A stretch of 64,000 bases of DNA from Diacronema lutheri (taxonomy: Eukaryota > Haptophyta > Pavlovophyceae > Pavlovales > Pavlovaceae): assembly GCA_019448385.1 (NCBI GenBank), contig JAGTXO010000070.1, positions 62,001-126,000 of the forward strand. The letters run 5' to 3'. The translations under genes were made by a program, and so were the position numbers. The notes beneath the pieces were generated by a model. It did not search any database. It was not told the DNA's origin and saw nothing but the letters and a program-made list of their open reading frames with translations. Position 1 is the stretch's first letter. Each line of letters starts with the position of its first letter. Shown in pieces: positions 3,368 through 54,063 of this stretch.

Positions 3368-3682
3368 TCAGAGCGACGCGTCCATCACAACCGCCTCGAA
3401 GAGCTTCGGGTCGTACGCGTTGAGCGCGGAGAGGCTGGCCGGCGCGGCGTCGCGCACACGCTTGAAATGGGCCGTGAGGAAGCGGAATGCCGCCTCATCC
3501 AGCTCCGCCAGCCCGCACCGGCGCGCGGCGACGAGCCGGTCGGCCACGTTCGCAACGCTCAGGCCGGCGATGCACCGGCAGAGCGCGTGCTCGGCGAGGT
3601 GTGCGAGCTCCATCTCGCGCGCCTTGCTCAGCACCTCGACCAGGTGCTCCTCGCTCAGCGCGGACAGGTCGTCCGTATAGAT
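3368..3682 (-). pseudogene. BTB-domain gene, 3' fragment cut by mobile element
   Basis: The minus frame ending at TGA 3368-3370 encodes the second half of a BTB/POZ domain and the start of a BACK-like helical region. It begins with IYTDDLSALSEEHLVEVL, then has two helices with the usual spaced Leu/Cys pattern and ends ...LFEAVVMDASL. BTB proteins commonly are Cullin-3 substrate adaptors. Upstream of the IYTDD segment the frame enters sequence shared with element copy 2 (from 3674), which has no BTB similarity, so the N-terminal half is gone at this junction. I searched the minus strand to the right and found no N-terminal BTB part. The fragment itself is open and unbroken, so the loss looks recent. 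It is probably non-functional. Confidence 0.65.
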
Positions 3683-4081
3683 GGTCAAGCCAAATCCGAT
3701 CAGGGGCACGATCGAGCGCCCCGAGTGCAGCGCGGGCCATTCGGAAGGACGTCCTTGTGAGGGAGCTCTTCGCGTTTGGCGAGCGGGGGAGCACGACGCG
3801 CAGCGTTGCTGCGGCGGCGTGCGGGCGGCGAGCAGCGGTCGGGCTGCTCGCGACGAGGCCGGAGCAGACGGCGCCGTGGCCGCCGGCGCAGGTGACGCGC
3901 GCCGACGAGCCGTAGCGAGCGTCCGTGATCCGCACGGCGGTTGGAGCGGGCCGGCTGGTGCGGCGCGCTCGGCCACGGGTGGCGGCGTGCACGGGCGTGC
4001 CGAATGCGGTACGCGTCGCCAGCCGCGCGCGACCTGGGCAGAGCCCGCAAAGCGTCGACCGCTGCGCGGCTCGGCCGTGCG
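3674..4081 (-). ncRNA. candidate Fanzor omega RNA region
   Basis: The non-coding stretch lies between the Fanzor stop codon and the element end, in the position where TnpB/Fanzor guide RNAs are known to lie (3' of the nuclease, scaffold reaching the element end). It is kept almost unchanged in both copies although it encodes nothing recognisable. It contains a perfect 8-bp stem with 8-nt loop (GCGAGCAG at 3828-3835, CTGCTCGC at 3844-3851), present also in copy 2. If correct, the guide would be read from host flank just beyond 3674. Two differences near the end are a 2-bp indel at about 3715 and an A/G change at 3741. This call is positional inference; transcription is unproven. Confidence 0.4.
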
Positions 4082-7000
4082 TCAACGCCGGCCGCGCTTC
4101 GGCCCGCGCGCGCTGCCGCCGCCGGCACTGGCGCTGGCAGCTCCGCGGGCGGGGGTGCGGGCGCGAGCGCCGCCGCCGCCACCGCCGCCGCGCCCGCCGC
4201 CGTCGTCGCCACCGCCGTCGCCGCCGCCGCCTCCCCCGCCGTCATCGTCGTCGTCGCCGCCGCCGCCTCCGTCTCCGTCGCCGTCGCCGTCGCCCTCGCC
4301 GCCGCCGCCGTCGCCGCTGGCGTCGTCGTCGTCGTCGTCGTCGCCCTCGTCGTCGCCCTCGTCGCCGCCGTCGCCCTCGTCGTCGCAGTCGTCGCCCTCG
4401 CCGTGCACCATGCGCTCCTCACGCTCCCACACCTCGCCGCGCGCCCACCAGGCGAGCACGAGGGCAAAGCGCTCAGGCGTCGACGTGGTGTCGCGCCCGG
4501 CCGCGCGCGCCGCAATGTCGTGCACGTCGTAGAAGATGTTGCGCGCGGCGTTGTAGTCGCGGTGCACGGGCTTCTTGCCGCCGTTGCACGCCGGGCAGAT
4601 GACGAGCGCGTGCACCGTGCGCGTGCCGCCCTTTGCCACGGGCAGGCGCGGGTTCTGCGCGAGCTCCGCGCCGCAGCGCTGCAGCCTGCCGCCCTTGGCG
4701 AGCCGCGGCATCGAGCAGTGCATCGACGTGTACGGCTCGGGTACGAAGACGGCCGCGACGCCGCGCCGCCGCAGCTCGCGCAGCAGCCCCACCTGGAAGG
4801 CGGGCGGCGCGCCCTTGGGCTGCGCGCCCTTGTGGTCGTGCAGCCACTTGCCCACGCACACGAGCAGCCGGTCGCGCGTCACGCCGTCGACGCAGTGCGC
4901 CGCGATGAGCGCCTCGGCGACGCGCGCCGCGTTGGACCGCCCGCCGCTGTCGCGCCGCCAGCGCTCCTTGCGGCGCGCCGGCGCGTCGTACACGTGCTCG
5001 GCGGCGCGCTCGCGCACCCGCGCGCTCTCGCGGTGGAAGGCGATGTATTTGCCCGCGTCGAGCACCTTGGCGCTGTGCGCCTCGCCAAGCCGCGCCTCGT
5101 CCGCCTCCACGCTGAACTCCTCGCCGCGCCCGTCGGTGCGCACGCGCCGCCGCGCCGCGTTGGTCTTGGCCGTCTCGCGCGCAAAGCCCGCGGCGCGCGC
5201 GCGCGCGCGCTGCGTGAACTGCCGCCAGACGGCCGCCCGCCCGACGTGCGCAGAGTAGGTGGTGATGTTGCCCATGTTCGGGTCGGCCGCGACGACGACC
5301 GCCTCCTCGATGTCGATCGCCCGCCGCAGCTCGGAGCCGAGCGCGACGGCGATGCGCCCGTCCGGCCGGCGCCAGCGGTGCAGGACGCTCGAGCTGCCGG
5401 CCGGCGCCTGCGCCTTCGGCACGAGGACGGTCGCGACGGCGTGCACGGCGACGCCATCCGTCACCACCGACGTGACGGGCTGCCGGCCCGGGAGCGGCAC
5501 GCGCGGCAGCGGCGCGAGGCCCACCCACGAGCGCCGCGCGTGCCACGGCAGATCGGCCGGCGGCCGCTCGCGCCCGGCGTAGTCGAAGACGCGGTTGGAG
5601 ATGTCGAAGCGCGTCGCGAAGACCGCGTACCTGACGCGCACGTCGGACATTGGCGGGACAAACGAGCCGCCTTGAGCGGTCCACTTGATCGGCTCGCCAT
5701 CGTGGTCGCGCAGGTCCAGCGCCTTGAGCCGCGCGCGCAGCTCCTTGCGCTCGTCGTCCGGGAGCGTCTCCCAGATGGCGTTCGCGGTGAGGCGCACGTT
5801 GCGCGGCACCTGCGCGCAGCGCGCGGCGCGCGAGCGCGCGGGCGCGTGACCAACCTGGCCGCGGGGCGGCGCGCACGGCGGCGGCGCGCGCGCTTGGGCG
5901 CTCGGCGGCGGTAGCGGCAGCCGCGCCTCGCGCGCACATTGTGCGTGCGCAGCGGCGCCACATTGTACCGCGGCGGCCGTCCGGTCAGCTGCGTGTGGAT
6001 GTGCGCGAGCCGGCAGAGCAGCGCCTGCCCCTCGGCCACGTGCTGCAGGGTGCGGATCTGCACGAGGAAGTAGCGCGTCGTGTGCCGGTCGTAGTTCCAC
6101 CTTTTCGTGGGCGTGCACTTGTAGTCGATCTTGTGGAGGACCATGTCGGGCAGGTGGCGGTCGAGCGCGGCGGGGCAGCCGACGCGCGCGCCCTCCACGT
6201 CGCCGCGCAGCAGCCGCTCGCACAGCTCGCGCACGCGCGCGTTTCGCTGCATCTCGGGCAGCGCGACGAGCGCCTCGTCGCGCTCGACTGCCGCGCGGAC
6301 GACGTCGCGGAGCAGCCCGTTCACGACGCGCGATGGGTGCATCAGGCACGCGGTGGACACCTGCGTCGCCTCCTCCGCGAGGATCTTATCGAGGCCCACC
6401 GCGCAGACGGGCTGGACGCCGTCGGCCATCTCGCCGACGGCGCGCGCCGTCGCCGCCTTGGTCTGCGCGGCGGCTTGCTCGGCGGGCTTGCCTCGGGCCG
6501 CTGCACCGTACGTGCTCACGTCCTTGTGCCAGCCGATCGCCGAGAAGATCGCACGGACGGTTCCCTTGTCCATCGTGGTCGACGTGTGCACGCTTGTCGA
6601 CGGGCCGCCCGACGCCGCGCCGACGGCCTGCGCGCTCGCCACCGCAGCCTCGTCGCGCACCACCTTGTTGATGGCGCGGTACGCCTGTGTCGTGAGCCTG
6701 TGCACGGCCGCCGCGATGCGCCGCAGCTCCTTCCGCGCACCGGGCTGCGCCGTCACCGCCTGCGGCCCCGCGTTGAGCGTCGAGCGCTTGACCACGAAGC
6801 CCGGGAGCACGCTGCCGCGCGTGCGCGCCGTCGCGCCGCCGGCGGCGCGCGCGCTCGGCGCAGCGGGCTCGTCCACGCGCGCGCGCTCGACGCCGCGCGC
6901 GCGGGGAACGCTCGGCGCGCGCGCGCCCGCGGCGTCGCGCGCGCTCGCGGCAGCACCCGCCGCGGCGCGCTTGCCCGCGGCGCCCGACACGCCGTGCGCG

Positions 7001-7170
7001 CGAAGCGGCGCCGACGCCAATGCCGACGCCGCGCCCGCGCCGCCGCTGCCGCTGCCCGATCCGCCCGCGCGCCGCTTCTGCTCGTCGCGCGTCTTGCGGA
7101 ACTGGGCGACGAGGTCGCTGCTCACGTTGGCCTCAGGCTCCCACGTGTCGGCGCTCTCGTCGTAGCCCCG
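4082..7170 (-). CDS. Fanzor: Fanzor (eukaryotic TnpB-like RNA-guided nuclease), copy 1
   Basis: RuvC-fold nuclease of the Fanzor/TnpB family. The frame is open from just after TGA 7171-7173. Exon 1 runs to 5938, a 128-bp intron (GTGCGCG...GCGCAG, 5810-5937) follows in phase 0, and exon 2 is 5809-4082. The first ATG is at 6573, giving 787 residues; 7125 is only a GTG. Counting from that ATG: RuvC-I Asp388 in VVAADPNMGN, RuvC-II Glu570 in VFVPEPYTSMHCS, zinc knuckle Cys577/591/617/620, RuvC-III Asp630 in VHRDYNAARNI. All are intact, so the enzyme is probably active. The end is an unusual Asp/Glu/Gly repeat tail and a basic KRGRR tip. Upstream of the ATG the frame holds the second half of a chromodomain (GYDESADTWEPEANV), continuing the giant frame. 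Both copies share this layout. Confidence 0.88.
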
Positions 7171-10100
7171 TCACCTGATCCGGAACTGGAACGTCACCTT
7201 CTTGCCCGCCTTGCGGCGCTCGTCGACGACCGCCTCGACCTCGTACGTGCGCGCCTCCTCGTCGACGCTCGCGCCCGCCGCGCTCGCGCCCGTGTCCGGC
7301 CACCCAGCGACCGTGCCGCCCAGCCTCTCGGCGGCCGCGCGCAGCTGCCGCTCGCGCTGGGCGGCCGCGGCGCCTCGCGCGACCAGCGCGGGCAGCATGC
7401 CCGCGCCGCCCGCGAGGCCGTGCGCGCCGACGCTGGCGGTCATCAGCGCGTCGAGGCACGCGAACGTTGCGAGCGCACGCGCGCCATCGTCGCCGCCGCG
7501 CGGCTGCGAGCGCACGACGGGCGATGGCTGCGGCTCCCCCTCGGCCGCGAGCAGCGGCCAGATCGCACTGGCCAGCGCGACGGCATGCGCGCCGACCGCG
7601 GCGGCCACGTCCGCGTCGAGCGGCGCAAAGTCGTAGCGCACGAGCGCGGCCGGGCGCGAGTCGTCCGTCGGCCGGTCGGCGACGAGCAGCCCGACCGGGC
7701 GCGGCGGCTCGCCGGACGGCGCGGCGACGGGCACGCAGAGGAGCACGACGAGCAGGCGCGGCGTGCCGCCGAGCAGCGCGCGCGCGGCATCCGCCCCGTC
7801 GGCTCCGCAGCGCGCGGCCGCGGCGAGCAGCTCGGCCGCGCGCGTCGGGCCCAGCGCCGTGCGCGCGTCCTTGCGCGCGCGTGCGCGCGCCGTGTACGCG
7901 GCGCAGGCGTCGTCGAGCGCCGCCGCGCTGGGCGCGGTGCCAGTCGTCGCCCACGCGCGCAGCGCGTCGCGCACCCGCGTGACGATCGCCTGGTCGACTG
8001 CCGCCTCGCCGGCAGCGTGCGCCGGCGCGCACGCCGGCGGTGCGGCGGCAGGCGCGAGCGCGGGCGCGCCGTCGGCGCCGTCAACGCCGACGGCGCCGTC
8101 GGCGCGCCGCCACGCGAGCTTCGCCTCGATCTGCTGCCGGACGGCGTGGCAGTGCCGGTCGATGCCGCGCGCGTCGTCGAGCGCGGCCAGCGCGTCCTCA
8201 GCGGCGGGACGGTCGCTCGCGTCCGCGACGGCCTGCAGGCAGAGCAGCGCGGCCGCACGCGCGTTGCACGCGCTCTGCGGCTCGGGCGCGAGCGCGAGCT
8301 CGAGCTCGAGCGGCGACGCGCCTCGCGCCGCGGCGATCGCGTCCATCAGCACGTCCAACCGCTGCACCAGCGCCCTGTGCGCGTCGCGCGGCGCGCCCGT
8401 CGACGGCGCGCGCGAGCGCGTCGCCACGAGCCCGAGCGCGCGCGCCGGCGCGCCCGCCGGCGTGTGCAGCACGAGCAGCGCCGCGCCCGCCAAGCTCGCG
8501 TTGCGCGTGACGAGCGCGAAGATGCGCGACGCCTCGTGCGCGCCCACCGACGCCCAGATCGCAGCGCGATCGGCGTCCGTCTGCGCGTCGCACAGGTCGC
8601 GCACGTCGTCCGGCGCGAGCAGCGCGCCGCCGCCGGCGGAGCGCGCGACGATCGCCCGCGCCTCCGCCACGAAGACGGCCTGCGGCAGGTCGGCGTGGCG
8701 CGCGTCGACGATGGCGCGCGTCGCGTGCACGCCGAGCTCCACGCCGCGGTAGAAGGCGCGCGCGTTGGCCGCGCGCGCGTGCGCCGGCCGTCCGTCCGCG
8801 TTGCGCCTCGCGCGCGCCTGCTTGCTCGTGCGCGCGAGGCCGTCGCGTGGCGGTGGCGGCAGCGTAGCGAGGAAGCGCGCGGTGGGCGGCGGCGCGCGCA
8901 CGCCGCGCTGCCGCCGTGCGATGGCCGCGAGCCGCCGGCCCGCCGCGCTGCCGCCCGCGCCGACGTGCTGCCAGCGGTTGAGCGCCGCCGGTGGCGGCGG
9001 CGGCGGCGGCGCGGCGGCGGGCGGCGGCGCGACGGCGGGCGGCGGCGCGGCGGCGGGCGGCGGCGCGGCGGTGGGCGGCGGCGCGGCGGCGGGCGGCGGC
9101 GCGGCGGCGGGCGGCAGCGGCGGCGGCGCGGCGGCGACGGCAGCACCAGTCGGCTTGTCCGCCCACGCACCCGAGACTCTGTCCCAGACCTTGCCCCATG
9201 GCGCGCGCCCACGCGGCCGCGCGAACTGCCCCGGCTCGAGCGCCTGGCCGCGCTTGGCGGCGGCGGCGGCGGCAGGGGGCGGGCGGCCGGCGCGCCAGTC
9301 GAAGACAGGTGCAACCGTGGCGGCAGGCGCCGAGTGCCGCGCGTCGGTCACAGAGCGCGTGGTGCGCGCGGCGACCGTGGCACGCCTGGCGGGCGGGCGG
9401 TGAGCAGCGCCCGCCGGCGCGCCGGCGGGCGCGGCCGCCTCGAGCCCGGCGGAGGCGCCGCGCTTGCGCTTGCGCGTGCCGCCGCGCGTGCGCCTGCGCG
9501 CGCGCCCGCCGCGCGCCCGTTCGGCCTGCGCGTCGCCAGCCGCGTCGCCGGCCGCGTCGCCGCGCCGCACGTAGACGACCGCGAACGCCTCCTCGCCGGT
9601 CCCGTCGACGCCGCCGCGCGCGCGGCGCAGGACCGACCGCCACTGCAGCCGCCGCGCGCGGCCGGGCTCGCACGCAAACCAGCGCCCACCGCGCCTGACG
9701 ACGGCCACAAAGTCGTCGTCGCGCCGCCCGCGCCGGCGCGTGCGCAGCAGCACGCACTGCACGTCGAGCCAGCCCTCGTGCCAGTCGGCCGTGCTGGGGG
9801 CGACGCGAATCGACTGCGGGAGCTCGACGCCAAAGCCGGCGAGCCGCACGATGTGCGCGACGATGACGCTCGAAATGGCGGGGGCGCTCGACGGGTCGCC
9901 CGCTGCAGCGAGCACCGCCCCGCCCCAGTGCTCACGCGTGACGCAATCCGCGTCCTCGACGTGCACGTGCGCCACGCTCGCGCCGAGCTGGTGCAGCAAC
10001 GCGCAGATGTCGGCGTCGACCGTCCTCTCCTCCTCGGCCGCCTCGGCCGTGCCGCGGGCGGCGGCGTCGCCTGCCGGCTGCCCGAGGTACGCGATCGCCC

Positions 10101-13100
10101 GCTCGACGGCCGCGCGCTCCGCACGCGCTGCGCTGTCGATCGCCGCATTGCCGACGGGCGCGCGCAGCGCCGCGATCGCGTCTTGCAACGCCGTCGCGTC
10201 GCCCGTCGCCGCCGTCGCCGCCACCGCCGCCGCGCTCGCGGTGCCGTGCGCGACGGCGTGCAGCGCGGCGGCGCGCGCGGCGGGGATGCGCCCGTCCAGC
10301 GCGAGCACGAGCGGCGGCCCGGCCGGCGTCTGCTGCCGCCGGTGCCGCCGGCTCGCAGCCGGGTGGTCGGCGCGCGCGCGCTCGAGCCGCGCGCGCCGCT
10401 CGACGACGCGCGCCCAGAAGGCCTGCACCCTCGGCTGCGCGAATGCAAGCCAGCCGACGCCGCGCGTCACGACGTGCACGACGATCCGGTCCTCGTGCCT
10501 GAGGTACTGCACGTAGAGCGCTTTGCGCACGCCGAGGACGTGCATGCCGAGCTGCAGCTGATCGCGGTGCGGCTGCGGCGGCCCGTCCTCGTGCGCCTTG
10601 GCGTCCGCCTTGGTGAGCGTCTTCACCTCGACGAGGACCTGCTCGTTGTCTTCGGGGAGGATGGCGAGCCCGTCCGGCGAGAAGGCGAACGGCGCGCTCT
10701 TGTCGTGCGGGTCCGCACGCACCATCGGCAGGTTGCACACGACGGTGATGCCGTACGCGGCCGCCAGCTTGCGCAGCGCGACGGCCTCGCCGAGGATGCC
10801 CGCGGTCGTCGCCTTGGTCCGCACCTCGCGCCGCCGCCGGTGCACGTACTCGTCGGTGAGCGTCTCGTGCGCGACGCCGGCGTTGTCGTTCACGACGTCG
10901 CCAACCTTGCTGCCCGTGACCTCCTCCCATCGCTCGTCGTGCCAGCGCGGGCTGCGCTGCGCGGGCGCGCCCGCGCCGACGGCGTCGAGCACGCGGCGCA
11001 GCGCTGTGCCGTCGGGCGCAGCAGGCACGCGCGCGCGGTCCTGGGCCTCGCGAGCGTCGAGGACGCAGCCCGTAGTGGAATCTTGGGGTAGGTCGAGCTT
11101 GCTCGCCTCGCCGTAGCGGCTCTCCAGCTGGCGCGGTGCGTCGGCAGGGCCGCCGTCCGTGCGCGCACCCGACGCGCCCGCCAGTGCACGGGGCGCAGCG
11201 TCCGAGGCGCCCGCCGCGCCCGCGCCGCCGCCAATCGCGCCAGCGCACGCGCGCGCCGCGACCTGCGGACGGCCAGCCGCAGGGACCTCGTCCGCTCGGC
11301 CGGCCGCTGCGTCGGCCGTCCGCTTGGCCACCTCGCGCACGTCTCCGAGCGCGAGCGTGGCTGGCGCCGTCGAGCTCCCGTGGCGTTTGTTCCAAAACTC
11401 GAGCAGCCCGCCAAGGAAGGGCGTGCCCGTCGGGCGGTCCTCGGGCACCTCCGCCAGGATCGCGTCGACGCGCAGCGCGGCCGCCACATCGCAAAACGCG
11501 CGCGCGGCGCGCGCCATCCGCTCGGCGCGCGCGCCGCCGTCGTCCGCCGCGCGGCGGATGGCGTGGCTCACGTGCGCGACGCGGAGCGAGACGACGGCGT
11601 GCGCCGGCGCGTCGGCGCCCGTGCCGAGCGTGTGCCGCCGGATGGCCAGCTGCCCATCGCCCATGCGCGGCGGGAGCGACGCGCACGCCGCGACGGTCGT
11701 CTTGCCGGCCGCGCTGTCGCACAGCCAGCTCGCCTCGCCGCCGCCCGCAAACTCAAAGGTCGCGAAGCCCTCGCGGCCGAAAAGCGCGACGAAGTGGTCG
11801 AGCACCGCCTTGTTGATCGCGCGCGCCGCCGGCCGCGTCGATGCGCCGCGGGCAGCGCCACCCGCCGCGCCGCGCGCATCGCTGCACGTCGCAGGGCAGG
11901 TGCAGCCGGACGCGCGCACGCCGTCCGACCGCGTCCGCGGCAGCTCGAGCTCGCGCACCTTGGGGCAGAACCAGAGCGGGTTGGACGCCTCGAGGCACAG
12001 CACGACGAGCCGCCCGTCCGTGCCGGCCAGCGCGCGCGCGTCGCGCAGCAGCTCGACGGCGAGCTCGGACGTCGCCGCGTGCACCGCCGGCTCGCCCGTC
12101 GCGCGGTCGGGCGGGAAGAGGCCGCCGCCGACGAGCGGGCTGGGGCAGCGGCCGAGCATCACGAGCAGCGGCGGCGGCGGCGTCTGCGGCGCCTGCTGCC
12201 CGACCGCAGCCGCCGTCAGCCCGGCCAGGTCGGAGCTCGTGCGGAGGGCCTTGAGCGCGACGCGCGAGCCGGTGCCCGCCTGCTCGGAAAACGTGGCGAG
12301 CATGGCGCACGTGCTCGCCCTCGCGCCGCACTGCCAGCTGACGCGCGCGAGGAGGCCTTCCAGCGTGTCGTTTTCGCGCGGCCGCGTGACCGCGTCGAGC
12401 GCCGCCGAGTCGAGCTGGAGGCTGCCGGGCGTGACGCACAGCACCGCCTCGTGGTAGGCGCGCAGCAGCTCCCTCGGCAGCTGCTCGGCGGGCGTCGCCG
12501 CCTGCCCGCCCACCCACCGTGCACCGTGGCCGCCGTCGCCCGCGCCCGCGAGCCGCACCGCCGGCCCGCCCGTGATCGCCGAGGTCGGTGGCGTGCCGAG
12601 CGCGTCGACGAGCGCGCGCACGGGCGCGACACGCCTGCGCGCAGCGTCCGCGCCGACGGCGAGCGCGGCGATCCGAGCGCCCTCCCATGCGCGCTCCCTC
12701 GCGTCGTCCCGCGCGGCCGCCGGCGCGGCGCCCGGCCGCGCGCCGGGCGGCACCGCGCACGCCGCCGCGACGACCTCCGCGCGCGCGCCGGCGGCGTCGG
12801 GCGCGTGCAGCTGCGCGAGCGCGCCAGAGAGCGCGGCGGCCGAGCGGTAGCGGCCGTGCGCCGCGACGAGCGCGTAGAGCACGCGCAGCGCGGCCACGCC
12901 CGCCTGGTCGGGCGCGTCGTCAGCGATGCGCTCGACCTCCCACGTGCGCGTGGGCGGCGGGCTGCCGTCGGCCGGGTCCGGACGCAGCGCCCACGCGCGC
13001 TCGACGATCGCGTTGAACACGTCGCGCGCGGCGCCCTCGTCAAACTCGGCGGCGCCCGCCGCGTGCGCGCACCACCCGTGCACGCGCGACGTGGGCGCGT

Positions 13101-14653
13101 CCACGGCGCGCTGCACGACGAGCACCGCCGGCCGGTCGACGCAGCCGAGGCTCACCGCCGCGTGCTTGCCCTCGAGCAGCGCCGCCGCCGCAGCCTCGAC
13201 CAAGGCGTCACCAGGCGCGTCGCCGACGACGACGGCACAGCCGTCGCCGTACTCGGCCTGCATCGCGGCGACGCACGACGCGACAAAGTCGCCGCCCGCG
13301 GCCGCCGCGTGTCGCGCCGCCAGCATCCGGCGCGCGATGGCAAGCCAGACGTACTCGGCCGGCGCGCGCGCGGCGCGCGCGCGAGGCGCGCCGGCCGCGC
13401 CGCGTGCGCCCGCGCGTGCGCCTCCAGCGGCCGCAACGGCCGAGGCGGCTGGAGCGGCGGTGAGCGTGCGCCGCGCGCGCTTCGCCGGCCGCGCGATGGG
13501 CGATGCACCCGCCATCGCCCCGCCCGCAGCAGCCGGTGCGGCCGCCACAGCGCCCGCCGCAACGCCACTCGTCACGACGCCCGTGGCGGGCGGCGCGGCG
13601 TCGGACGCGGCCGCCTCGACGGGCGTCGCGCAACTACCGCCAGCGGTCGCGGACGCGCCCGGCGACGCGTCGGCGAGGAGGTGGCGCAGCACGCCGCGCG
13701 CGAGCGCGACTCGCACGGCGAGCGTCAGCGCGCGCAGGCGGTCGGAAGGCGAGGCGTCGCGCTCGGCGTCGGCGGACGTGGCGGCAGCAGGCGGGGCGGC
13801 GGGCGGCACGGCGGCGGACCGGGCGGCCGCCGGCGCAACCTCGTCGGCCTTGGCCAGCCAGACGAGCCCGGCGACTGCGAGCACGACGCTGTACGCGCCG
13901 ACATCGTCACCCGCAACGCGCGCCAGCCGGGCGTGGGCGTCGGCCTCGGACACGGCGACGTGGAAGAGCACGTCGTCGCGGGCAGCTTGCTCGGCAAACT
14001 GACGCAGCTGCTTGGCCATCGTCACGCCGGCGACGCACGCCTCGCCCGCCTCTGCCTCGACCTGCTCGTCCTGGCCGATGGCGGACGCGCCGGCCTCGGC
14101 GCCACCGTCGAGTGTCCGGCGGCGCTCGAGGGCGAAGCCACGCACACAGACGCTCTGGAGGCCGCCGAGCGCGCCCGCCTTCTCGTGCAGCGCGCACGAC
14201 AGCTCGACCACCGAGTCCACGCGCCTCGCGGCGGCGCCCCCCCGCTCGCCGCGCGTGGCCGCGCGCACGACGAACACCGTGAATTGCGCGCGCTTCGCCG
14301 CGCGCGCCGACGCGCACGCGTGCTTCAGGAGCCGGCAAAGCGCGGGCCTTTGCGCCACTGCGCCCCGCGTGCACAGCAGCAGTTGGCCGCGCTCGTCGCC
14401 CAGCTCCTGCTCGACGGCGGCCTCGAGCGCGTCGTCCGTCAAATCGCCGTGCTCCGTCGAGGCGAGCGCGCGCGCAGCCGCGAGCGCCAGCTCGCCTGCG
14501 CCCGCGCGCCGCCGGCGGCGCGCACCGGCGGGCGCGTGCGGCGCCGACGCGTGTGACGACGCCGCCGCGTCCGCACGCGCACACGCGGCGCGCAACGCCT
14601 CACGCGCCGAGGCGGCCGCGCGCGCCCTGGGCGCGAGCTTCAAGAACGTGCGC

Positions 14654-14749
<96 letters not shown>

Positions 14750-17700
14750 TCGCCCTCGTCGCCGGCCGGCGGCGGCGGTGGCGGCGGTGGCGGCGCGGCC
14801 ACGGCGGCGGCAGCAGCGGCGGCGGCGGCGGTGGCGGCGGCGGCGGCGCCCAGCGCGGGCGGCGGCGGCGTGGCGGCGGCGGTGGCGGCGGCGGTGACGC
14901 CAGCGGCGGCCTTGGCGCCGCGCGTCTGCGGCGGCGTTTCGGCGCGATCGGGGCTGCCCCCGCCACGCACCGCGCTCGTGACCGCGCAGACGCCGCCCGG
15001 CGCACGATCGCTGGCCGCGCCGGTCAGCGCGACGCGGAGGCGCTCGCCGACAGCGTACATGTCCGCCACGCTGAACGTGCGCGGCGCGGACGAGCAGCCC
15101 GCCGCGGCGAGCGCGTCGTTGAGCGCGCCCACTATCGCGAGGCCGCACGTCGCGCCACGCTGCGCCGCCTCGTTGAGCAGCAGCGCGCGGCGCACGCGCG
15201 AAATGTCGAGACCCGCCGCGTGCAGCGTGGCAGTTATCGCCTTGGCGAGCATGAGCGCCTGCCTGCAGGGCGACGCGAGCGTGTCGACGAGCACCGCGTC
15301 GTAGCGATGCTCGCCCGCGCGCGCGACGCGCACAAGGCGCAACGCGGTGAAATGGCCGGAGGCGAGCTGCGCGCCGTCGTCACCGCCCGCGCCGCCGCGC
15401 TCGTCCGACGGGCTCCACACGCCGATGACAGCCTGCGTTGTCGCCTCGCTGCGCAGGCGGTGCAGCAGCGCGGCGCGCTCGGCGCCGTCCTGGAACACCG
15501 CGGGTTGCGCGGCGAGCGGCACGTGGCAGACATGCCCGCCGCCGGCCTGCCCGTGCACGCGCAGCACGACCTCGCAGCACGCGTCGACGGTTGAGGCGAG
15601 CATGTCGCCGCTGGCGATGCGCTCCACCTCTGCCTGCGGGAGGCCGGCGCTCGCGGCGGCGGAGGCCAGCCGGCGCGCAGCCGCGTCGCCCGCCCACGCA
15701 AGCAGCGCCGAGTTGGCGGGTTGGAGGGGAAGCTCAAGGGCGGCTGGTTCGGTGGCGGTAGCCTCGTTGGCAACGGGCACGTTGGCGGTGCGCACGTTGG
15801 CGGCGGGCGCGGCGGCGATGGCTGGTGGGGCGGAAGACACGCCCGCGGCGGCAGGCGCGGACGCGACAGCGGCAGCGACTAGTGGGGCGGGGAAAACGCC
15901 GTCGGTGGCTGGCGCGGAGGCGAGTGCAGGAGCAACTAGTGGGGCGGGAAAATCGGCGGCAGGCGCGAAGGCGGATGCAGCAGCGGCTAGTGCGGCGGGG
16001 AAAACACCGTCGGCGGCAGGCGCGAAGGCGGATGCAGGAGCGCCCAGCGGGGCGCAGAAAACACCGTCGGCGGCAGGCGCGAAGGCGACAGCAGCAGTGG
16101 CCAGTGGAGCGGAGGCGCAGGGCCACGCGCGCGCCAGCCGTGCAAGCCCAAGCCGCGCGCGAGCGACGCACGCGCCGATGGCCGAGGCGGCGGCGCAGGC
16201 CACGACGTGGCCTGGCACCGGTGTGGCCAGCCGCTCGCGGGTGTGCACGTCGAGCCGCGCCCCACGCCAAGAGCGGCGGCGCGCTGAACGGAGGCGCGCG
16301 ACCCCGATCGATCCGCCCGCGCACGCGCGCGCCGGCTCAGTGTGGCCAACGCGCGCCGCTATGCAAGGCGCGCGCGCGATAACGGCGGCTGTCGGCCGTG
16401 GCGTGCGCGTGGCGGCGCCGCGGCGACGGGCGCGGCACACGAGCCGCTCGGGCGCGCCGCCGCCGCGCGGCACGATGTCGAGCAGCACGGTCACGCCGCG
16501 CGCGCGCGCGACCGCCGTGCACGCGAGCCGCACGGGCAGCGGCGGCCCGTCCGGGCGCGCGAGCGCCGCCACCTCGGCGTCGGTGAGGCTGTGCAGCTCG
16601 CGGCGCGCGCGCGCGAACGCGGCGATGTCCGCGCGCAGCTCCGCGTCCGTGCCGAGCGCGGCACGCGCGTGCACGGGGAGCGACGCGCGCAGCGCGTGGA
16701 GCACGCCGCCGCGCGCGCCGCGCGGCGCCGGCGCGCGCTCGCGCTCAGCGCGCGCGGCGCGCGTGAGCTCGCGCACCGCGCGCGCGAGATTGCGCCGCGC
16801 GGCCGCGACGGGAGGGCTAGGTGCGCGCGCGCGCCGGTTGTAGCGCGGCCGCGCCGAGTCGAGGGGCGGCGGACGCGGTGCGTACGCCGCGGCGCGGCCC
16901 GCGCGCCAAAAGGCCGGCGGCGGGCGCAGCTCCGTCGCGTCGACCGCGGCCGCGAGCGCGCCGAGCGCGGCGTCGCTGTCGCCCGCCGCGTCGGCCGCGT
17001 CGACGAGCACGAAGAGCGCGCCGAGCGCGCGCGACGCGGCCGCCTGCGCGGCGGTGGGGCGGGCGCAGGCAGCGACGCATGCGGCCGCCATGCCGCGCGC
17101 CGCGGCGAACGCCGGTGACGTGACGGCCGCGCCGATGGCAACGGCGGCGGCGGCGACGGTCGAGGCGGCAGCGCCGGCGATGGAGGTGGCAGCGGCGGCG
17201 GCGCTTGCCATCGCGCGGCGCGCGAGACGCGAGGCGCCACCGACCGCCGCCGCCGCAGCGCGCGCTGCGCGCGCGCCGGTGGCGCGCATCGTCGCCGCGC
17301 CAGGCGCCGCCGCGCCGACGCCGCCGGCGCCCGCGCCGTCGCCGCTCTCGGCCGTGCAGGGCTCCGATGGCGAACCCGGCGTGCGCTGGCGCGTGATGCG
17401 CGCGCCGAGGCGCGCGCTCCGCGCCGCGCGGCCGGCGACGTCGAGGAAGCGCCGTGCGCGCGCCGCGCGCAGGCCACGCGCGCGCGGCGGCGCACTTACA
17501 GGCGCCGAGCGCCGCGGCGCGCACGCCGGCGCGTCGCTGTCGGGTTGCGCAGCGCGCGCGCGGGAACTCGGCGCGGCGTGTGCGGGCGGCGGGCGCGCGC
17601 CCGCGCGGCGCAGAGGCGCGAGGCGCCGGCCGCAGACGAGGCGTGTGCGCAACCAGGACGGCGAGGGCCGCAGGGCGCCGTCGACGTCGCGCATCGGCGG

Positions 17701-20700
17701 GCCGCGAGCCCGCCGCGCAGCCGTGCGGCGCGCGCGAGGCGCTCGGCGGCGCGCGCGCCGCACGGCGCGCGCGGCGGCGCGCACGCCAGCGACGGCTGCG
17801 GCCACGCCGCGCGCCAACACGGCCGCGGCGTGCGCCATCGCACCGAGCACGGCGCGTGGCGCGCCGAGCAAGCGCAGCAAGCGCGACGCCGTCGCGCGCG
17901 CCGGCGCACCGTGTGCAGGGGCCTCGCCAGCGCCAGCACCGACGCCGCCATCGCCGCAGCCGCAGGTGGCGTCGCCGCCGCCGCAGGCGTCGCGACGGAC
18001 GCCGCCGCCGCCGAAACAATCGCCGCACACGTCGCCGCCGACGTTGCCACCCCAGCCGCCGTTGCGTGCGCAGGTGGCTGCGGCGCGTGCGTGCGGGAGG
18101 CGTGCCGTGCGGCGCGCATCACACGGGCTGCGCGACGCGAGCGACGCCGCCGGGGTCCCCGCTGCGCCAGGCGCGCCGTGCGCGCCAGCCTCGCCGGCCT
18201 CGCCGGCGCGCGGTCGCGCGCTCGCCTCGACGTGGCCGCCTCCGCCGCCATCGCCGCCGTCGAACCGGGCGGCGGAGGGCTGCCGCTCGAACCGCTCGTC
18301 GGCGTCGGCCGCCACCGCCGCCTCGCGCTCCGCCGCCGCGGCGGCCGCACGGCGCGCGTGGCGGAGCGCGCGGCCGCCGTCCGCTGCGCGGCGTGGCGGC
18401 GCGGGCGCCGCCTTCGGCGCGCGCGGCCCCTCGGCGCGCTCGCGGAGCACGGCGAGCGGCGTGCCCGTGGCGACGCTCGTGCAGACGCGCCGCAAGGCGG
18501 CGCTTACGCACGCGTGGACGACGCGCGCCGTCCGCTTGTCGGCGGCGCGCGCGGCGCGGCGCGCGGCCTTGGCGGCGGCCTTTTTGGCGCGCCTCTGCTC
18601 CGCCTGCTCCGACAGCGCGCGCGCCTGGCGCTCGGCTGCGAGCGCGTCCTCGGGCGAAACGGTCGGCCTCGGCGGCCGCGCGCGCGCGCTGCGACGCTGC
18701 GCGCTGCGGCGGTCGGACGGCGGCTGCCGCGGCGGCGAGGACGGCGAGCGCGAGCTCGGCGTGGGCGACCAATCGCCGCTGACGGTTGCGAGCGGCGCAA
18801 ACGGGTTGTCGTCCCCGCGCCCCGCGGCGTGCGACAGTGCACGCGGCGTCGGGCGCCGGCCGACCGCTGGCGGGCCCCACTCGGACGGCGGCTCCGAGGG
18901 CGAGCGCGCCGTCGGCGCCGCGCGTTGCGCGGCCGGCGGCGCCTCCCGGTCCAGCGCCGCCTGCTCTCTCGCCGCGGCCTGCTCGTCACCCTCCGGCACG
19001 CCACGCGGCGCGAGCACCGCGGTGGCGCAGCGCGTCGCGTTGAGCAACGCCGCCTCCATCTGCCGCACGCTGGCCTTGGCGCACGCCACACCCTGTCTCG
19101 CCCGGCGCAGCGCCTCGTGCGCGCGGCGCACATCCGCGTCGGCATCTTCGCGCATGCCAAAGTGCGCCTGTTGCAGCCGCAGGTCCGCAGGGCGCCCCTG
19201 CGCGCGAGGGGCACGGGCGCGGCGGCGCGCGGGTGACGGAGCTGGCGCGCCGTTCTGCGCTGCGCGCACGCCAATCGACGGGCGCGCGCGCGGCGGGGCG
19301 CGCGCGCGCGCGCGCGCGCGCGCTGCCTACCCAGCCGCCGGCCGGCTCGCGCGAGCGCGCCAGCTGCTCCGCCGCCTCGGCGTCGAGCACGCGCTGCTGC
19401 GCCTCCTCCTCGCCCAGTGCAGCGAGGTGCAGCCGGCGGGCTGCCTTGCGGCAGTTGCCCTCCGCCTTGCCCACGGCCTTGCGCGCCGCGTCGACGGGGT
19501 CGTCGTTGGCTCTGGCGCGCCTGCGCTTGCCCTTGTCGGCGGGCGGCGGCTCGGCGCGCTGCGGCGCGCCGAGCGCGTCGTCGGCTCCGCGCGCGGCCGC
19601 CCGCGGGCGGCGGGCCCCAAAAAGCGCACCGGTCGCCGTGCGCGCCGCGCAAGCAACGACCAGCGCTGACATGCCGGCGAAGACCGCACCGCCCAGCGCC
19701 ACGGTTGCCACGATGCGCAGCGTCCCGTGCGCAGGCCGCGCTGCCTCCGCCGCTTTGGCGGCCTCGCGCGCGCGCGCATCGGCGGCTCTCATCTCGTGCA
19801 GCAGCCCGGCCGCGCCGCTCGCGCCGTCGCGGCCGCGCGCGAGCTCGCACAGCACCGCCGCCGCGCGCCGCGTGGGCTCGCGCGCGAGCAGCTGCGCGCC
19901 GCCGTCGGGGCGCAGCTTCTCAACGAACTCGGCAAACGTCGCGTCGCGCCAGAGGGACATGCGGAAGGCCCTGTGCACCGCCCCCTCCTGCTCGCGCATC
20001 CGCCGTGCCGCCCGCCTGCCGTCGCGCGCGTGCGCGTGCGCGGCCGCGTCGACTCCCGCGACGCCGCGCTGCGCGTCGCGCGCGGCCGACGACGGCGCCG
20101 CCGCGCTGCCCGCCAAGGGCGCCGCAGCGGCGACGCGCGCGTGCGGAGCGACGGGATCGCCGGCGGCCGGCGGCTCGGCGCGCTGCGGCGTGCCGTTTGC
20201 TCCGCGCGCGGCCGTCCCGGGGGAGATGGCCGCGATGGCGCCGCCAGCCGCGCCGTGCGCCAGCCACGCGCATAGGCTGCCGACGAGCTCGCCGAAACCC
20301 CCGACGGTCGCCGCGGCGGCGAGTGCGCCGGGCTTGCCGGCCGACAGCGGCTCGCGAGCGTCGTCGTCGCAGCCGCCGGCACCCGTCTTGGCGAGTGCGT
20401 CGCGCTCGCCCTCGACGCCCGCCACGACCGCCGCCCCTCCGTCGTCCGCCGCGCCGGCCGCGCGCGCGGCCGGGCGCAGAGGAGGCGTGCCGGTGCAGCC
20501 GTCGCCGCTCGTCTTCGCCGTTTCCTCCACCTTGATCGCTTCGTCGCCACCTGCGCCATCTCCGACGCCGGGGCCCTTGGTCACGCTTGCCGCCATGCGC
20601 GCCGTGCCCGCCGGCCAGCCCGCCGACTGCTCGAGCGCGGCGGCGAGCGGCGCGACGCGCGTCGACTCGGGCGCGCTCTCGTCATCGGGCTCGAGCGCGT

Positions 20701-23005
20701 TGTGCAGGCGCGCGAGCGCGCGCTCGACGGCCGCGGCGCCACTGCCGGGGGCGCGGCTCGCCGCGCGCACCGCGCGCCGCCAGGCCGGCGCGAACATGAG
20801 CGCCGACTCGAGCGCCGCGAGCGCGCGCGCCTCGCGCGCGTCGCTCGCGCCGAGGCGCGGCGGCACGCGCGCGGCGCCGCGCGGCGCGGTGCCTCGGAAG
20901 CGTGGGCTCAGCGTGTAGGCGAGGTGCTGCGGCACGCCGCGCGCCTCCGCGCGCGCGCGTCCGTCCTCGACCTCGCGCCGCGCCTTCGCGATCGCCGGCG
21001 TGGCGCGCGCGAGCCAGTCGGGGTCGGCGGGCAGGTGGATCACGACGAGAATCGGCGCCCAGTCCAGCCGCGGGTTTTTGTGACGGTCGGGCACGACCCA
21101 CACGAGCAGCACCGTGCCCTCCGCGCCGCACGCCGCCTCGTAGATCCTGGGCTGCGAGCGCCAATCGGGCCTGACGCGCAGCGCCCGCGCGTGGTCGATG
21201 GCGGCGGCGCGGTCGCCATTGAAGTGAACCGTCGTCACCTCGCCGATGACGGACCGGCCGGACCGCCAGCAGAACACCGCGTCCGCCGACCCGCCGGCGA
21301 TGGCCGCGAGCGATTCGGGCGCGGCGAGCCGCGGCAAGCCCTCGAAGGCGGCAAAGTCCTCGTGCGCAGTGTACACGCCGCCCCAGCCGTCGTGCGCGTA
21401 CGCGCGCGCGGCCGCTCGTACCGCGCGCGGCTGGTTCTCCACGCCCGACGTCATGTGCCGTGTCGTCCCCGCGAAGCCGGGCTCGCCCAGCTCGGCCCGC
21501 ACGACGGTACCGTACCCCGCGCCCTGCGTCGGGGCGGCGAGGTGGTGCATGCCCGCGCCGGTCACGCCCTCCGTGCGCTGCCGCGTGACGATCGTGCCCG
21601 TCGCGTGCGCGAAAAGCGTGTCGACCACGGCGGGCGCGCGCCCGCTGTTCGCCCGCAGCCGCGCCCTGCCCGCTTTTAGCTGCTCGGGGTCCTTGGCGTC
21701 GTACACGCGCGCGTCCGCGTCGCCCTCATCAGGCGCAGTGTAGACGCAGCGGCGTTCGAGCGGCGCCGAGCCACCGCCGTCCGCCGCCGCCGGCGAGGTT
21801 GGCGCCGCGCCCGCCGCCACCGCGCTCGTCGCCGCCGTGCCCGTCGCCACCGCCGCAGCCGCCGCGCCCGCGGGGTCGTCGTCCCCGTCCTCCGCGCCCT
21901 CCCCGTCGTCAGCGGTGGTGGCGTCGCCATCGTCCCCGTCGCCCTCGCCCCCGCCGAGGCTGCTGAATGGTCGGGGCCCCCACGCCGAGGCGGCGCGCCG
22001 CTGCGGCGCACGCGGCGGTGGCGCTCGCGACGGCGGCCTTGGCGCCGCCGCGCCGCGCGGCCTGGCCGCCGTCGACAGCGCGCGGCCTGCAGCGCCCGTG
22101 AGCGCGTCGAGCGCGGCCGTGCGTGCGATGCGGTCGTCGGGCGCGCGCAGCGCCGCCTCGACGGCCTGCAGCAGCCCGTCGGGCGCGGATCCGCCGACAC
22201 TGGCATCGCACGCCTCGGCGAGCCGCGCGGCCTCGGCGAGCCGCGCGGCCTCGCGGGTGAACGGGCCGAAGCGCCTGGCGCGGTCGCCGAGCAGAGCGCC
22301 GATGGCGGCGCGGAGCGTGCGCGCGCGGGTCTCCTCGTACGCGGCCGTCGTGAGGCGCGCGAGGCGCGCGTCCAAAGCCTTCTTGATGTCGACAAGGACA
22401 CTCGCGCGGCGGCCGTAGAGCGTCGATGCGCTCGCCACGACCTCGGCCGCGACTGTTGCCGCGGCGAAGCAACACGCGGCCCCACTCTGCGGGGGCGCCT
22501 TGAAGGCATCGATGGGCGGCGCTGTTCTGCCGATGCGCTGCGCAAGCTTCTTGATGAGCACGCCGGCCGCCGTGGCGTACGCCGATTCGCCGTTGCCCAA
22601 GGTGCGCGAATCGGCGAGCAGGGCGAGCGCGGCGCCGGGCGGCGCGCCGCGCTGCGCGGGCGGCGCGAGGAGCAGGTACGCCGCCGTCCAGTGCACGAGG
22701 CCGCTGGACGCGCGGAGGCAGAGCGGTAGCACGACCACGAGCACCTGCCCAAACCGGTCCGCATCCGCGCATGCTTTGCGCAGGTTGCGCAGCGCCACCT
22801 TGAGCGCATGCTGCGAGCACCCCGTGTCGCCCAGCATAACCCTGCTCGTGCCGAAATCCGCGTAACGCAGCAGGGCGATGAGGCAAGTGGATGGGACCAC
22901 GTGGGGGTGGGTATCTCCCGGCGACAGAATGGTGCTGAGGGCCAGCGAGAAACTGTCCGAGCCGCCCCGCCCGCCGCGCAAAGCGTCCTTCACGGAGTCC
23001 TCCAT
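7171..23005 (-). CDS. giant multidomain element protein (two Ulp1-like proteases, YqaJ-like nuclease, chromodomain)
   Basis: Two very long minus frames are joined in phase 0 by a likely 133-bp intron (19198-19330, GTAGGCAG...CGCGCAG), giving about 5,233 codons from ATG 23005 to TGA 7171. Domains in order: an Ulp1/C48-like cysteine protease at about 30-190 (His105, Asp132, Gln173, Cys178/179); long low-complexity and coiled-coil stretches; a second Ulp1-like domain (His2507 in GHFTAL, Asp2530, Gln2571, Cys2576); a run of about 30 Ala; a YqaJ/lambda-exonuclease type PD-(D/E)XK core (Glu4029, Asp4067 in SPDGL, Glu4082-x-Lys4084); Pro/Ala repeats; and half a chromodomain (YEVEAVVDERRKAG). Adenain/Ulp1 enzymes often process proteins, so self-cleavage is possible but not shown. 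A region after the first protease is conserved-looking but unassigned. More introns or upstream exons are possible. Confidence 0.75.
14655..14748 (-). repeat. GCC trinucleotide run encoding poly-alanine
   Basis: An uninterrupted (GGC)n run on the plus strand, read on the minus strand as about 30 consecutive GCC Ala codons inside the giant element protein, between the second protease-like domain and a helical region. It keeps the frame. Such a run is expected to be length-unstable and may be imperfectly assembled. Confidence 0.85.
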
Positions 23006-25715
23006 CTGCAGACTGTGGGCACGTCAGTGTCCGGATGGCGGCCCGGATGATACTTGGGAGAATTTACATGATGCCCTGGAGAATGCCCCGCTCTCCCACA
23101 ACCAGGACCCGCCAGCGCGCCGAGCCTACTCGTTTGCCCGCGCCGCCTCTCTTTGCGCGCCCGAGCGCGGCCTCCGAGCGCGGCCAACGTCCTCCGGGGG
23201 CGTGCATCGTGGCTGCTCGGAGGGGCTGCGACGCGGCGAAAGCTCGCTGCGCGGCCGCAACGTGAGCGCGCGCGCGCGGCCGCGCGCCGGCCTGCGCTGC
23301 TCTGCACGGCCGCGCGCCGGCCTGCGCAGCCTCGTCGCGCAGCGTGAGCGCGAGCGCGCGCGAGGTGAGCTCGGCGGATGGGTGCGCGGCGGCGTTGGCG
23401 GCGGGTGCGGCGGCAGGCTGGGCGGCGGGTTTGGACGGAGAGTGTCGGGGAAGAACGGGGCGCATCCTGGCTGGGAGTTGGACGGCGCCCACCACGCGCT
23501 GGCGGATCCTGGTTGCCACCACCACCCCCCCCCCCCCCCCCGGAGACGAGGACCAGGGGCATGGCCGACTCGCTGCGCCGCACAGCGCGCGGCGCGCGGC
23601 ATGCTGCGCGACCTCAAGCACATCCAGCCGCGCTCCGCCCACGCAACGCGCGCAATGCCGCGTTGCACTGCAGGTGTGCACGTGCGGCTCTCACGCGCAC
23701 TGTGTTGCACGAACGGCATCACGCCACCGAGCTGCGTCCGGACCACGCGCCGCGCGCAGGCGACCACACAGGGGCGCGCCGCGCCGCGCGTGCGCGCCCT
23801 CGCAACCGTTGCAGCACGCTCTGCCTTGCACTGCGCCGAGCCGCCGCGCGCTGTGCGCGTGCATGCAGGGCGCACGCGTGCGACGAAGCGCGCGCGCGGC
23901 GAGGCGCGCGGGCGGCTCGCTGCGCGGGCGGCAACGCGCCCAGCTGCGCCCAGGCCAGGCGCGCGCCCGCGAGTGCCACCGGGACGCACTGCCCCCGCCG
24001 GGGTCGCCGCGCGCTCTGTGTGTGCGCTCGCGCGCTGCGAGCGCGGCGGAACGTTCGTGCATGGCGCGAAGAGCGCGGCACCCGAAGACGGCTGCCCCGA
24101 GCCCGCGCCGGGTGGCAGCGAGCGGCGGCACCTCCTCGGCGAGCCCGCCCCGCGCCTTCCCCTCCACGTGGCGTTTTGAGGCAGACGGACACGCGCCCAC
24201 ACTGCGACTGGGCACGCTGCTCGAGGCAGACACGCACCCAACGCGCGCGCACCACGCGCCCGCGTCGGCGGGCCGGTGTGAACGAGCGAGAGCTCGGTGT
24301 CGCCAACGGGGGCACGGGCGCGACTTCGGTCCGCCTCTCGACGGACGCAGGCGACGCTGCCGGGAACTTCCCCGACGCCTGCACATCCAGGGCTTCGAGG
24401 TACAGAGCTGGGCAACAGTGCCGCTCGTCACCGATGAGGCGGCCAAGCTCGCTATCCTTGCTGCCCTCGGCTCCACCAAACAGCCGGGCGACCCAACGGT
24501 TCGTGATCGCCTGGCCGCCAGGTGCGAACCGCGCCCGTGCAAGCGCTTCACCCGCATTCTCCGCCCCGCTGCGGACGTCCGCCTGCCGGCCGCGAACACG
24601 GCCGGTGCGCGTTGCCGCCTGGCCCAACACGAAAACCCGCCCGCCCCCGAGGCCGCAGGTCCTACCTGCCCAAGCGCAGCCCAACGGCACGCAGACAGCC
24701 CGCCTTGGCAACCGACTCGTGCGCGAGCGCTCCGCCCTCCACAAGAGCCTGCCCCACGCCACCGCCGACGCGGAGCCAGCGCAGCCGACGCCCCTCCGCG
24801 ACGCTCGCGCCGCAAGGCGCAAGGGCCCCGGCGAGACGGCGTCAACCAAGCCCGCCGCTGGCACAGCGCCGGCACCCGGAGCCCACCCCAAGCCCCCGCG
24901 CACGCCTCGCCCCCCCCCCCCCCCCCCCCCCCCCCGATCGGCGGACCGATTGCGTTTTGGTGCGCCAGGCTCAATGCGCCATCGCGGTGGCGGGCCCGCA
25001 GACGCAGACGCTGACATGCCCAACGCTGGGCACTGAGGCCGCAGGCCGGCCCTCCTGGACCTGGCGGGCGAGCTGCCCGCGCAGCGGCCACGCGAGCCTC
25101 GCACTGACCGTGGCGGTCGCTGCCACCGTGATAGCTGCGGGTGCGGCGGCCTTGGCCCCAACCCCATCATCCGTCTTCATCCCCGCCCTGCTCGCGCTCG
25201 CGGCCTACGTCGGCAATCCCTGCACCGGGATCCGCCCCGCGAAGTCCACACAAGACTTCTCCGTGCTGCACGCCAGCCGCGCGCGCCGACGCGCGCCGCT
25301 CCCACACGCTCACCTCCGTTTCCGCGGGCGGCCCAACGCCCCCCCCCCCCCCCCCCCCCCCTCCCCCCCCCCCCCCCGGCAGGCGGCCATCGAGCCGCAT
25401 TAGCACACCCGCCCGGGGCCTCCCGCCGCACCCGCAGCGGCTCGGCGCCTTGAATCCTCCCGTCCCCCGGGGTGAGGCCTTCAACCCGGGCCCAGCGCGC
25501 TCCGACTGCCTCACGCGCGCCAGCGCCAACCTCGGCGGCATGGTAGACCCCGAGCGAAAAGCCGCACTTCTCGCCGTCCTCGTCAGGCGCAAGTACGTTA
25601 TCCTGCTCCTACTGCCGACGCGGCTCCCGCGCGCGCGGACTACTACGCCGGGCAGATCGCCGCAGACGCACGTGAGTGCACACGTGCGGACAAGGCGCAC
25701 ACGCTCGACGTCCAG
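23006..25715. other. 2.7 kb without a recognisable gene; poly-C tracts
   Basis: Between the start of the giant element protein and the end of the USP-like gene I see no recognisable protein in any frame. Long frames exist on both strands, but they are Arg/Ala/Pro-rich and look like GC-rich noise. One plus-strand stretch (about 25098-25250) would encode two hydrophobic segments (SLALTVAVAATVIAAG and IPALLALAAYVG), which could be a fragment of a membrane protein. Pure C tracts lie at 23525-23541, 24910-24935 and 25339-25377. The region may hold the promoter, 5' exons or right end of the element; none can be marked. Confidence 0.4.
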
Positions 25716-25932
25716 TTAGCGCACGTGCACGTGCGCGCCACTGGTCACATTTGAGCGTCCGTGCTCGCCCACAGCGTCGCCATCCACAAGATGCGCGCTG
25801 GAGCCATCCAAGCAGGGCTCTGCCTGCTCGGCTTCCGCAAGGCAATTTGGGCCGCGGACAGCGGGCAGCGGACGGCGTGCGCGTGCGAGGTGCGAAAGGA
25901 GGAAGAAGGTAGGGAGAGTGGTGTGTGTGTGT

Positions 25933-25971
<39 letters not shown>

Positions 25972-30530: not shown

Positions 30531-30681
30531 CGCCCGGGCCGTGACGCCGCGGCGTCGTTCGGCTGCGTCACGGAGGAGCGCCATCCGTGCGCCACGGAGG
30601 AGCGGCAGGACCACGACGCGGCGTGACGCTGGACGACGCCATGCTGTCGAGGCGCCATGCTGTCGAGCCGCCATGCTCCGA

Positions 30682-40925: not shown

Positions 40926-40942
40926 CACATTTTTACTTTTAT

Positions 40943-41144: not shown

Positions 41145-41182
<38 letters not shown>

Positions 41183-51333: not shown

Positions 51334-51375
<42 letters not shown>

Positions 51376-54011: not shown

Positions 54012-54063
<52 letters not shown>

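Follow-up and report, generated by a model that had tools for sequence, protein, structure and literature searches.

A giant Fanzor-bearing mobile DNA element in the haptophyte Diacronema lutheri and a proposed route of its spread

The stretch of DNA studied here (the window, 64,000 nucleotides) covers positions 62,001 to 126,000 of contig JAGTXO010000070.1, called C21 below, in the 43.49-Mb, 103-contig genome of Diacronema lutheri. It contains one complete copy and one truncated copy of a giant element whose same two ends recur at many different sites of the genome, from which we infer that the element is mobile. Its minus strand carries a candidate giant gene which ends in a Fanzor nuclease and includes a YqaJ/RecE-type exonuclease and a chromodomain. 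We propose, with a probability of roughly 40% for the reading as a whole, that this is a recently amplified DNA transposon of D. lutheri with about two hundred copies, which inserts at CTATAC-like sites and is copied through Fanzor cutting and exonuclease-driven recombination.

Extent, ends and copies of the element

The limits of the element were defined by comparison of copies and are as follows (window positions here and below).

3675-32868, minus strand: mobile element copy 1, 29,194 bp, with left and right breakpoints shared among copies
58271-64000, minus strand: mobile element copy 2, truncated where the window ends
32861-32868, minus strand: 5′ terminal word CTATATAC (minus reading), which contains the CTATA repeat
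32804-32821: perfect palindrome of 18 bp at a distance of 47 bp from the 5′ end, found once in the window
3675-3680, minus strand: 3′ terminal word CTATAC (minus reading), read at the left-end loci

An initial annotation of this DNA, made from the sequence alone, had proposed a mobile system at 3674-23005. Its mobility is supported by the many sites with the same ends and by the two window copies, since self-comparison of the DNA revealed that 58270-64000 repeats 3674-9406 with 99.2% identity. The proposed unit was too short: position 23005 is the ATG of the giant gene, and the element itself ends at 32868. The left breakpoint of copy 1 is common to copy 2 and the 29 other left-end loci (n = 30, copy 1 among them). 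On the right side, similarity of the window to the copies on C37, C28 and C50 extends to 32868 and stops there.

The annotation had also suggested searching haptophyte genomes for all copies and both ends; in the D. lutheri genome, both ends were located and 193 merged places on 80 of the 103 contigs were found to carry the element. This count was derived from scored matches to the Fanzor (104 scored of 411 candidates), the chromodomain (150 of 286) and the YqaJ region (131 of 241), with matches implying 3′ ends at most 900 bases apart taken as one place; internally rearranged copies (large insertion or deletion, inversion) may be counted double and unscored copies are missing from it. The 150 chromodomain places provide a firmer floor. 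At the 104 Fanzor places, identity to the window falls into two groups, 18 at 100% (both window copies included) and 86 at 95-97%.

The first look at the ends gave nearly equal numbers of candidates (268 left, 275 right), about 40 of which were scored per side and paired manually by coordinates. The 20 copies paired in this way have lengths of 29,060-29,341 bases (15 copies) or 21,435-21,488 bases (five copies). Because the 21.45-kb class keeps both ends without about 7.7 kb of the element, this part is probably dispensable in cis. In one such copy (C4:1055336), the gap of about 7.7 kb lies upstream of the YqaJ region by its coordinates and perhaps takes in the start of the giant gene. An origin similar to that of long interspersed nuclear elements (LINE) was rejected, since candidates for the two ends are about equally numerous and no reverse transcriptase match was found in the frames scanned.

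At least nine contigs (C1, C5, C6, C10, C12, C26, C29, C83 and C91) start within about 35 bases of the 3′ end of the element, as expected for assembly breaks at a long repeat. Telomere targeting was considered for these contigs and rejected: the TTAGGG places on them, among the part of the 212 matches listed, lie far off (e.g. on C29), and assembly breaks fit.

In its minus reading, the element begins with CTATATACGGCG and finishes with GACCATCTATAC; the 5′ terminal word of the C37 copy is a variant, CTATGTAG. From the 30 left-end loci read, two at contig edges (TATAA) were left out. The end word at the remaining 28, window copy included, is TATAC in 27 and TACAC in one, and the bases beyond are random. 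Both flanks were read for four copies. Both ends carry a direct CTATA repeat in three of these, the 5′ end of the C37 copy reads CTATG, and no target duplication beyond CTATA was found in the four. In the C37 and the C42 copy, the two ends disagree within each copy. Insertion seems to favour AT-richer spots, because the 20 bases past the 3′ end have a guanine-cytosine (GC) content of 50% versus 74% farther out (3′ side only).

No terminal inverted repeats were found: comparison of the first with the last 600 bp yielded short internal matches only. An imperfect palindrome lies near the 3′ end, and hairpin-capable stretches are found near both ends. No empty allele of the C37 insertion site was found. 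The host frame joined across the insertion site in the window reads YIYTDDL, and a BTB-like reading of it was dropped as unsupported by Pfam.

Structure of the giant gene

The following features make up the putative giant gene and the stretch behind it, all on the minus strand.

19331-23005: exon 1, with ATG at 23005 (open frame, putative splice site)
22469-22693: C48-like catalytic set 1, HW ... DS ... QSGAACC (motif only)
19198-19330: predicted intron 1, GT-AG, 133 bp, which encloses a (GC)n run and restores the frame
5938-19197: exon 2 (open frame, codon-position GC)
15142-15354: C48-like catalytic set 2, HF ... DT ... QRGATCG (motif only)
10393-10968: YqaJ / RecE / lambda-exonuclease domain (PHROG, Pfam and NCBIfam profiles)
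7093-7245: chromodomain, interrupted by TGA in copy 1 (Pfam Chromo)
5810-5937: predicted intron 2, GT-AG, 128 bp, separating the RuvC exon from the N-terminal part of the Fanzor (junction of KFE25_006464)
4082-5809: exon 3 with Fanzor RuvC, TNB domain, acidic tail and stop (Pfam TNB, alignment)
3675-4081: 3′ noncoding stretch up to the element end, by its position the expected place of a guide RNA

The spliced gene would comprise 6,220 codons with two putative GT-AG introns. Its features fit an order, from the N- to the C-terminus, of a C48-like part, an unassigned stretch, a second C48-like part, YqaJ/RecE, the chromodomain and Fanzor1 as the last part.

The one long minus-strand frame of the initial annotation stands as two open frames of 4,051 codons (7171-19326) and 1,345 codons (18986-23023), and falls as a single one by a shift near 19.2 kb and a TGA at 7171-7173. 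In the 4,051 codons, about 36 stops are expected from base composition and only the terminal one is present, compared with 9-40 in the other five frames. The GC content is 69-82%, and third-position GC tracks the minus strand from 23.0 to 4.1 kb, barring steps of 300 bp at two places, close to 15.9 and 17.7 kb. Frame changes in this coding track fall at about 19.2 and 5.85 kb.

For intron 1, several alternative AG sites are likewise in frame, so that the acceptor given above is a putative one. A frameshift mutation near 19.2 kb was set aside, since the frames of many copies have about 4,500-4,620 codons and an intron fits; a few copies read through this region with more than 5,200 codons. At intron 2, the public D. 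lutheri protein KFE25_006464, a chimeric gene model with a SAM-domain stretch from another copy of the element, joins THN to VPRNV and thereby matches the junction.

The TGA inside the chromodomain lies in frame in both window copies (7171-7173 and 61765-61767). An alternative genetic code for TGA was rejected, because 149 of the 150 scored chromodomain copies have no stop at this position; the second window copy is outside that list. An identical stop is thus present in both copies of the window, which lie about 55 kb from each other, and absent from the 149 others; this suggests local copying or conversion.

The Fanzor nuclease and its coupling to the giant frame

The Fanzor part was recognized by Pfam TNB with an E-value of 2.7e-6 at 4535-4774 (27.9 bits, cut-off 26.3) and gave weak matches elsewhere (NCBIfam TnpB 0.025, PHROG transposase 0.32, PDB Cas12f1 0.42). 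A motif D-X(125,275)-[TS][TS]xx-C4 zinc finger-X(5,50)-RD is given for Fanzor and TnpB alike in the abstract of PMC3627910, and exon 3 contains it as D187, T372-S373, C376/390/416/419 and R428-D429. The RuvC D and E are present, in agreement with the RuvC residues listed by the annotation, and in an alignment with a Fanzor relative of 45-50% identity the catalytic residues are invariant. A structure prediction for exon 3 from three sequences reached a predicted local distance difference test (pLDDT) score of 38.4 and was not used.

The annotation had placed the Fanzor behind the giant frame. This had to be revised: a stretch resembling the Fanzor N-terminus is already contained in that frame, from which the 128-bp intron 2 would lead to the RuvC part. 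In 96 of the 104 scored Fanzor places, a match to the chromodomain or to YqaJ lies at a constant distance from the Fanzor (best candidates scored), and the remaining eight have no partner among the scored matches. The annotation had named Fanzor and giant frame on separate, unrelated elements as the finding that would speak against their coupling; this is not the case in the 96 places. A consistent coupling of the Fanzor to the frame with YqaJ and chromodomain is therefore supported.

Exonuclease, chromodomain and C48-like parts

The YqaJ-type nuclease proposed by the annotation is confirmed by the PHROG profile for RecE-like exonucleases (1.9e-17). The other two profiles remain below their cut-offs, Pfam YqaJ with 3.5e-4 (21.3 bits, cut-off 22) and the NCBIfam lambda-exonuclease family with 1.5e-7 (31.6 bits, cut-off 68). 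The chromodomain depends on how the TGA is treated, as Pfam gives 6.5e-13 when it is read as a residue and a sub-cut-off 0.0011 otherwise.

The two Ulp1-like proteases of the annotation hold as motifs and find no counterpart among profiles. A C48 pattern, composed after both sets had been seen, has exactly two matches in the giant frame and none in 112,889 residues of other window frames (50 amino acids or more); two or more matches were obtained in two of 2,000 shuffles. Neither set has a peptidase profile match in Pfam, PHROG or NCBIfam. Set 1 has no PDB sequence match under an E-value of 1, and the structure model of set 2 (mean pLDDT 42.5) is too poor for use. Duplication of the YqaJ or C48 modules was not supported by BLASTP (E 0.12 and 0.32, not significant), and protein searches found no YqaJ relative of giant length among 1,672 scored candidates and no relative of C48 set 1 among 8,000.

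The 5′ third of the element

The part upstream of the giant gene carries the features below, which the initial annotation did not contain; it also missed the true 5′ end, the number of copies and the introns.

23006-32868, minus strand: 5′ third, no steady coding track (codon-position GC, Pfam)
29465-30108, minus strand: Pif1 helicase split over two frames (Pfam PIF1 2.7e-23 and 6.5e-19)
26901-27167, minus strand: N-terminal part of a ubiquitin carboxyl-terminal hydrolase domain in an open frame of 498 amino acids (Pfam UCH 5.4e-9)

The helicase is frame-broken in both variants read, those of the window and of C4. The C4 variant (locus L058, 8077-9168) has about 1.1 kb extra with an open frame upstream of the helicase, which the window variant lacks.

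Substitutions among copies

Seven of 32 substitutions are synonymous, versus 29.5% expected. In 26 comparisons with the window (12 of the 30 left-end loci, 6 of the 12 chromodomain loci and all 8 YqaJ loci), the synonymous share is 13-38% in 25 and 50% in one with two differences, at an expectation of 28-29%; locus L036, one of the 26, was aligned across just 96 Fanzor codons. Apart from one 29/1 pair, the insertions and deletions in the stretches compared have lengths divisible by three. Because the substitutions are near neutral proportions, no selection at the protein level is demonstrated. The pattern is in line with a young burst and speaks neither for nor against function in an individual copy.

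Possible modes of movement

Under the transposon reading, translation of the giant gene would yield a single protein of about 6,200 residues, or a few products, to be cut into pieces by the C48-like parts. A recombinase, which could reside in a domain that escaped detection or be provided in trans, would join the element to CTATAC-like sites. The Fanzor, guided by an RNA from the 3′ end, might cut unoccupied target or donor sites; the YqaJ exonuclease would resect this cut, and recombination would then copy the element in, while the chromodomain may tether the complex to chromatin. Cut-and-copy by TnpB has been published, and it has been suggested for Fanzor as well (PMC10432273, in its accessible text).

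Several observations weigh against this reading. No recombinase or transposase domain was found in the element frames with Pfam, and the C48-like parts rest on motifs. The substitution proportions reveal no selection on protein within the genome, and the fused gene is based on introns predicted from sequence. The 3′ stretch at 3674-4084 has an unremarkable fold z-score of -0.91, and no Rfam family matches across the element. Moreover, the 3′ junction retains CTATAC beside the flank; a flank-copied guide with a CTATAC motif would therefore cut the resident copy too, and such self-cutting must be avoided somehow.

The most serious rival, which we regard as possible but on balance unlikely, is a Helitron2-like rolling-circle element with decayed Rep-helicase, in which Fanzor, YqaJ and proteases would be cargo and mobility would be provided in trans. 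The Pif1 helicase within the element, the hairpin-capable stretches by both ends in the absence of inverted repeats, and the Fanzor1 known from Helitron2 (PMC3627910, as far as accessible) speak for it. However, the helicase is broken, Helitron Rep was not found in the element, and the sole Helitron_like_N match in the genome (PF14214, C63:35738) lies on a contig without a listed copy. The Helitron ends 5′-TC and CTRR-3′ are replaced by CTATATAC and CTATAC, and a common CTATA direct repeat would be unexpected. Of the short asymmetric inverted repeats typical of Helitron2, a 6-bp match was seen by eye. The Helitron2 elements of Chlamydomonas that carry Fanzor1 (CRe-1, 2 and 3) are similarly algal, with intron-bearing Fanzor1, hairpins near both ends and no usual terminal inverted repeats; in contrast, they use TTTT sites instead of CTATAC, and no Rep was found here. 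The accessible text of PMC3627910 names no protease, exonuclease, Ulp1 or chromodomain for them.

Somewhat less probable is a tyrosine-recombinase element of the Crypton or Starship-like kind, which shares a short core with its target and whose recombinase has diverged too far for recognition. Starships and Cryptons have a short direct repeat at both ends and a target core, and Starships are large. CTATA at both ends agrees with this, and the end mismatch in C37 and C42 fits a heterologous core rather than a duplicated target. Against it, no Pfam recombinase match was obtained in the frames scanned, and a simple, weak scan for the H-R-Y pattern in frames of more than 150 amino acids gave three chance-like matches, none convincing. 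In contrast to Starships and Cryptons, no tyrosine recombinase was found here.

A bolder variant, which we consider improbable, dispenses with any transposase: a single giant protein that cuts itself would deliver both Fanzor and an exonuclease of RecE/lambda type, which would open and resect DNA, the CTATA ends of the element would anneal to CTATA in the target, and movement would consist of programmable cutting and exonuclease-annealing recombination. The phage YqaJ, RecE and lambda exonucleases share the nuclease domain by profile, but here it is embedded in a eukaryotic giant frame and no annealing protein was identified.

Proteases, RecE-like nucleases, helicases and Fanzors are all found in large DNA viruses, and the domain set of the element resembles viral gene content. 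Fanzors have also been reported in haptophyte viruses (PMC3627910, accessible text). An endogenised virus or virus-like element is nevertheless quite improbable, as none of the frames scanned with Pfam matched a capsid, polymerase or packaging family, and single queries with YqaJ and Fanzor, reaching close relatives only, retrieved no relative on a viral contig. Finally, assembly duplication or a chance reading in GC-rich DNA, suggested by the contigs that start at the element and by a GC content at which long open frames are common, can practically be dismissed, since the flanks differ at 28 sites, lengths are fixed, the expected 36 stops are missing inside the frame, profiles match, and contig ends at an element are typical of a long repeat in an assembly.

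Comparison with known elements

Taken singly, transposon-borne Fanzors, giant transposons of algae and YqaJ nucleases are all known already. In guide-nuclease elements, the nuclease adjoins the flank that is copied as guide. Those associated with TnpA resemble the element in having the nuclease near the 3′ end; here, in contrast, no TnpA was found and the nuclease would form the tail of a giant exonuclease-bearing frame. According to the accessible text of PMC12477816, the giant algal transposons KDZ, EnSpm and Sola reach up to about 30 kb with high copy number and accessory genes, and mobilisation in trans has been proposed for them, all of which recalls the present element; unlike these, it yielded neither a DDE transposase nor terminal inverted repeats. 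Polintons differ as well: PolB, integrase and capsid genes gave no Pfam match in the frames scanned, and inverted repeats are missing. The element is filed here as a Fanzor-bearing DNA element outside Helitron, Crypton, KDZ and Polinton. The combination of Fanzor, YqaJ, Ulp1-like parts and chromodomain was not reported in the literature searched, most subscription papers being outside this search.

Further features of the window

A repeat of 116 bp, which has GT-AG-like ends, is flanked by short duplications and is taken to be introner-like, lies at 40813-40928 and 32870-33018. It had 487 first-look candidates in the genome, the best 40 of which were scored and are mostly about 99% identical; a relative of it lies within the C37 copy of the element. 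Long poly-G tracts with repeats of 82 and 133 bp occupy 41146-41848. Outside the element, open frames at 44610-47738 and 50909-54439 (minus strand) have a sub-cut-off DNMT1-RFD match and a RING match above cut-off.

Significance

The D. lutheri genome is 22.9% repetitive, with long terminal repeat elements and LINE accounting for 36.5% of masked bases (PMC8379373, accessible text). At 193 copies with a mean of about 27 kb, the element would, assuming full size throughout, occupy an estimated 12% or so of the genome, and it may account for a large part of the repeats of this alga. With an RNA-guided nuclease and a resection nuclease apparently in one gene, the role of Fanzor for transposons would become testable. 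If a recombinase is truly absent, the element may represent a new kind of transposition.

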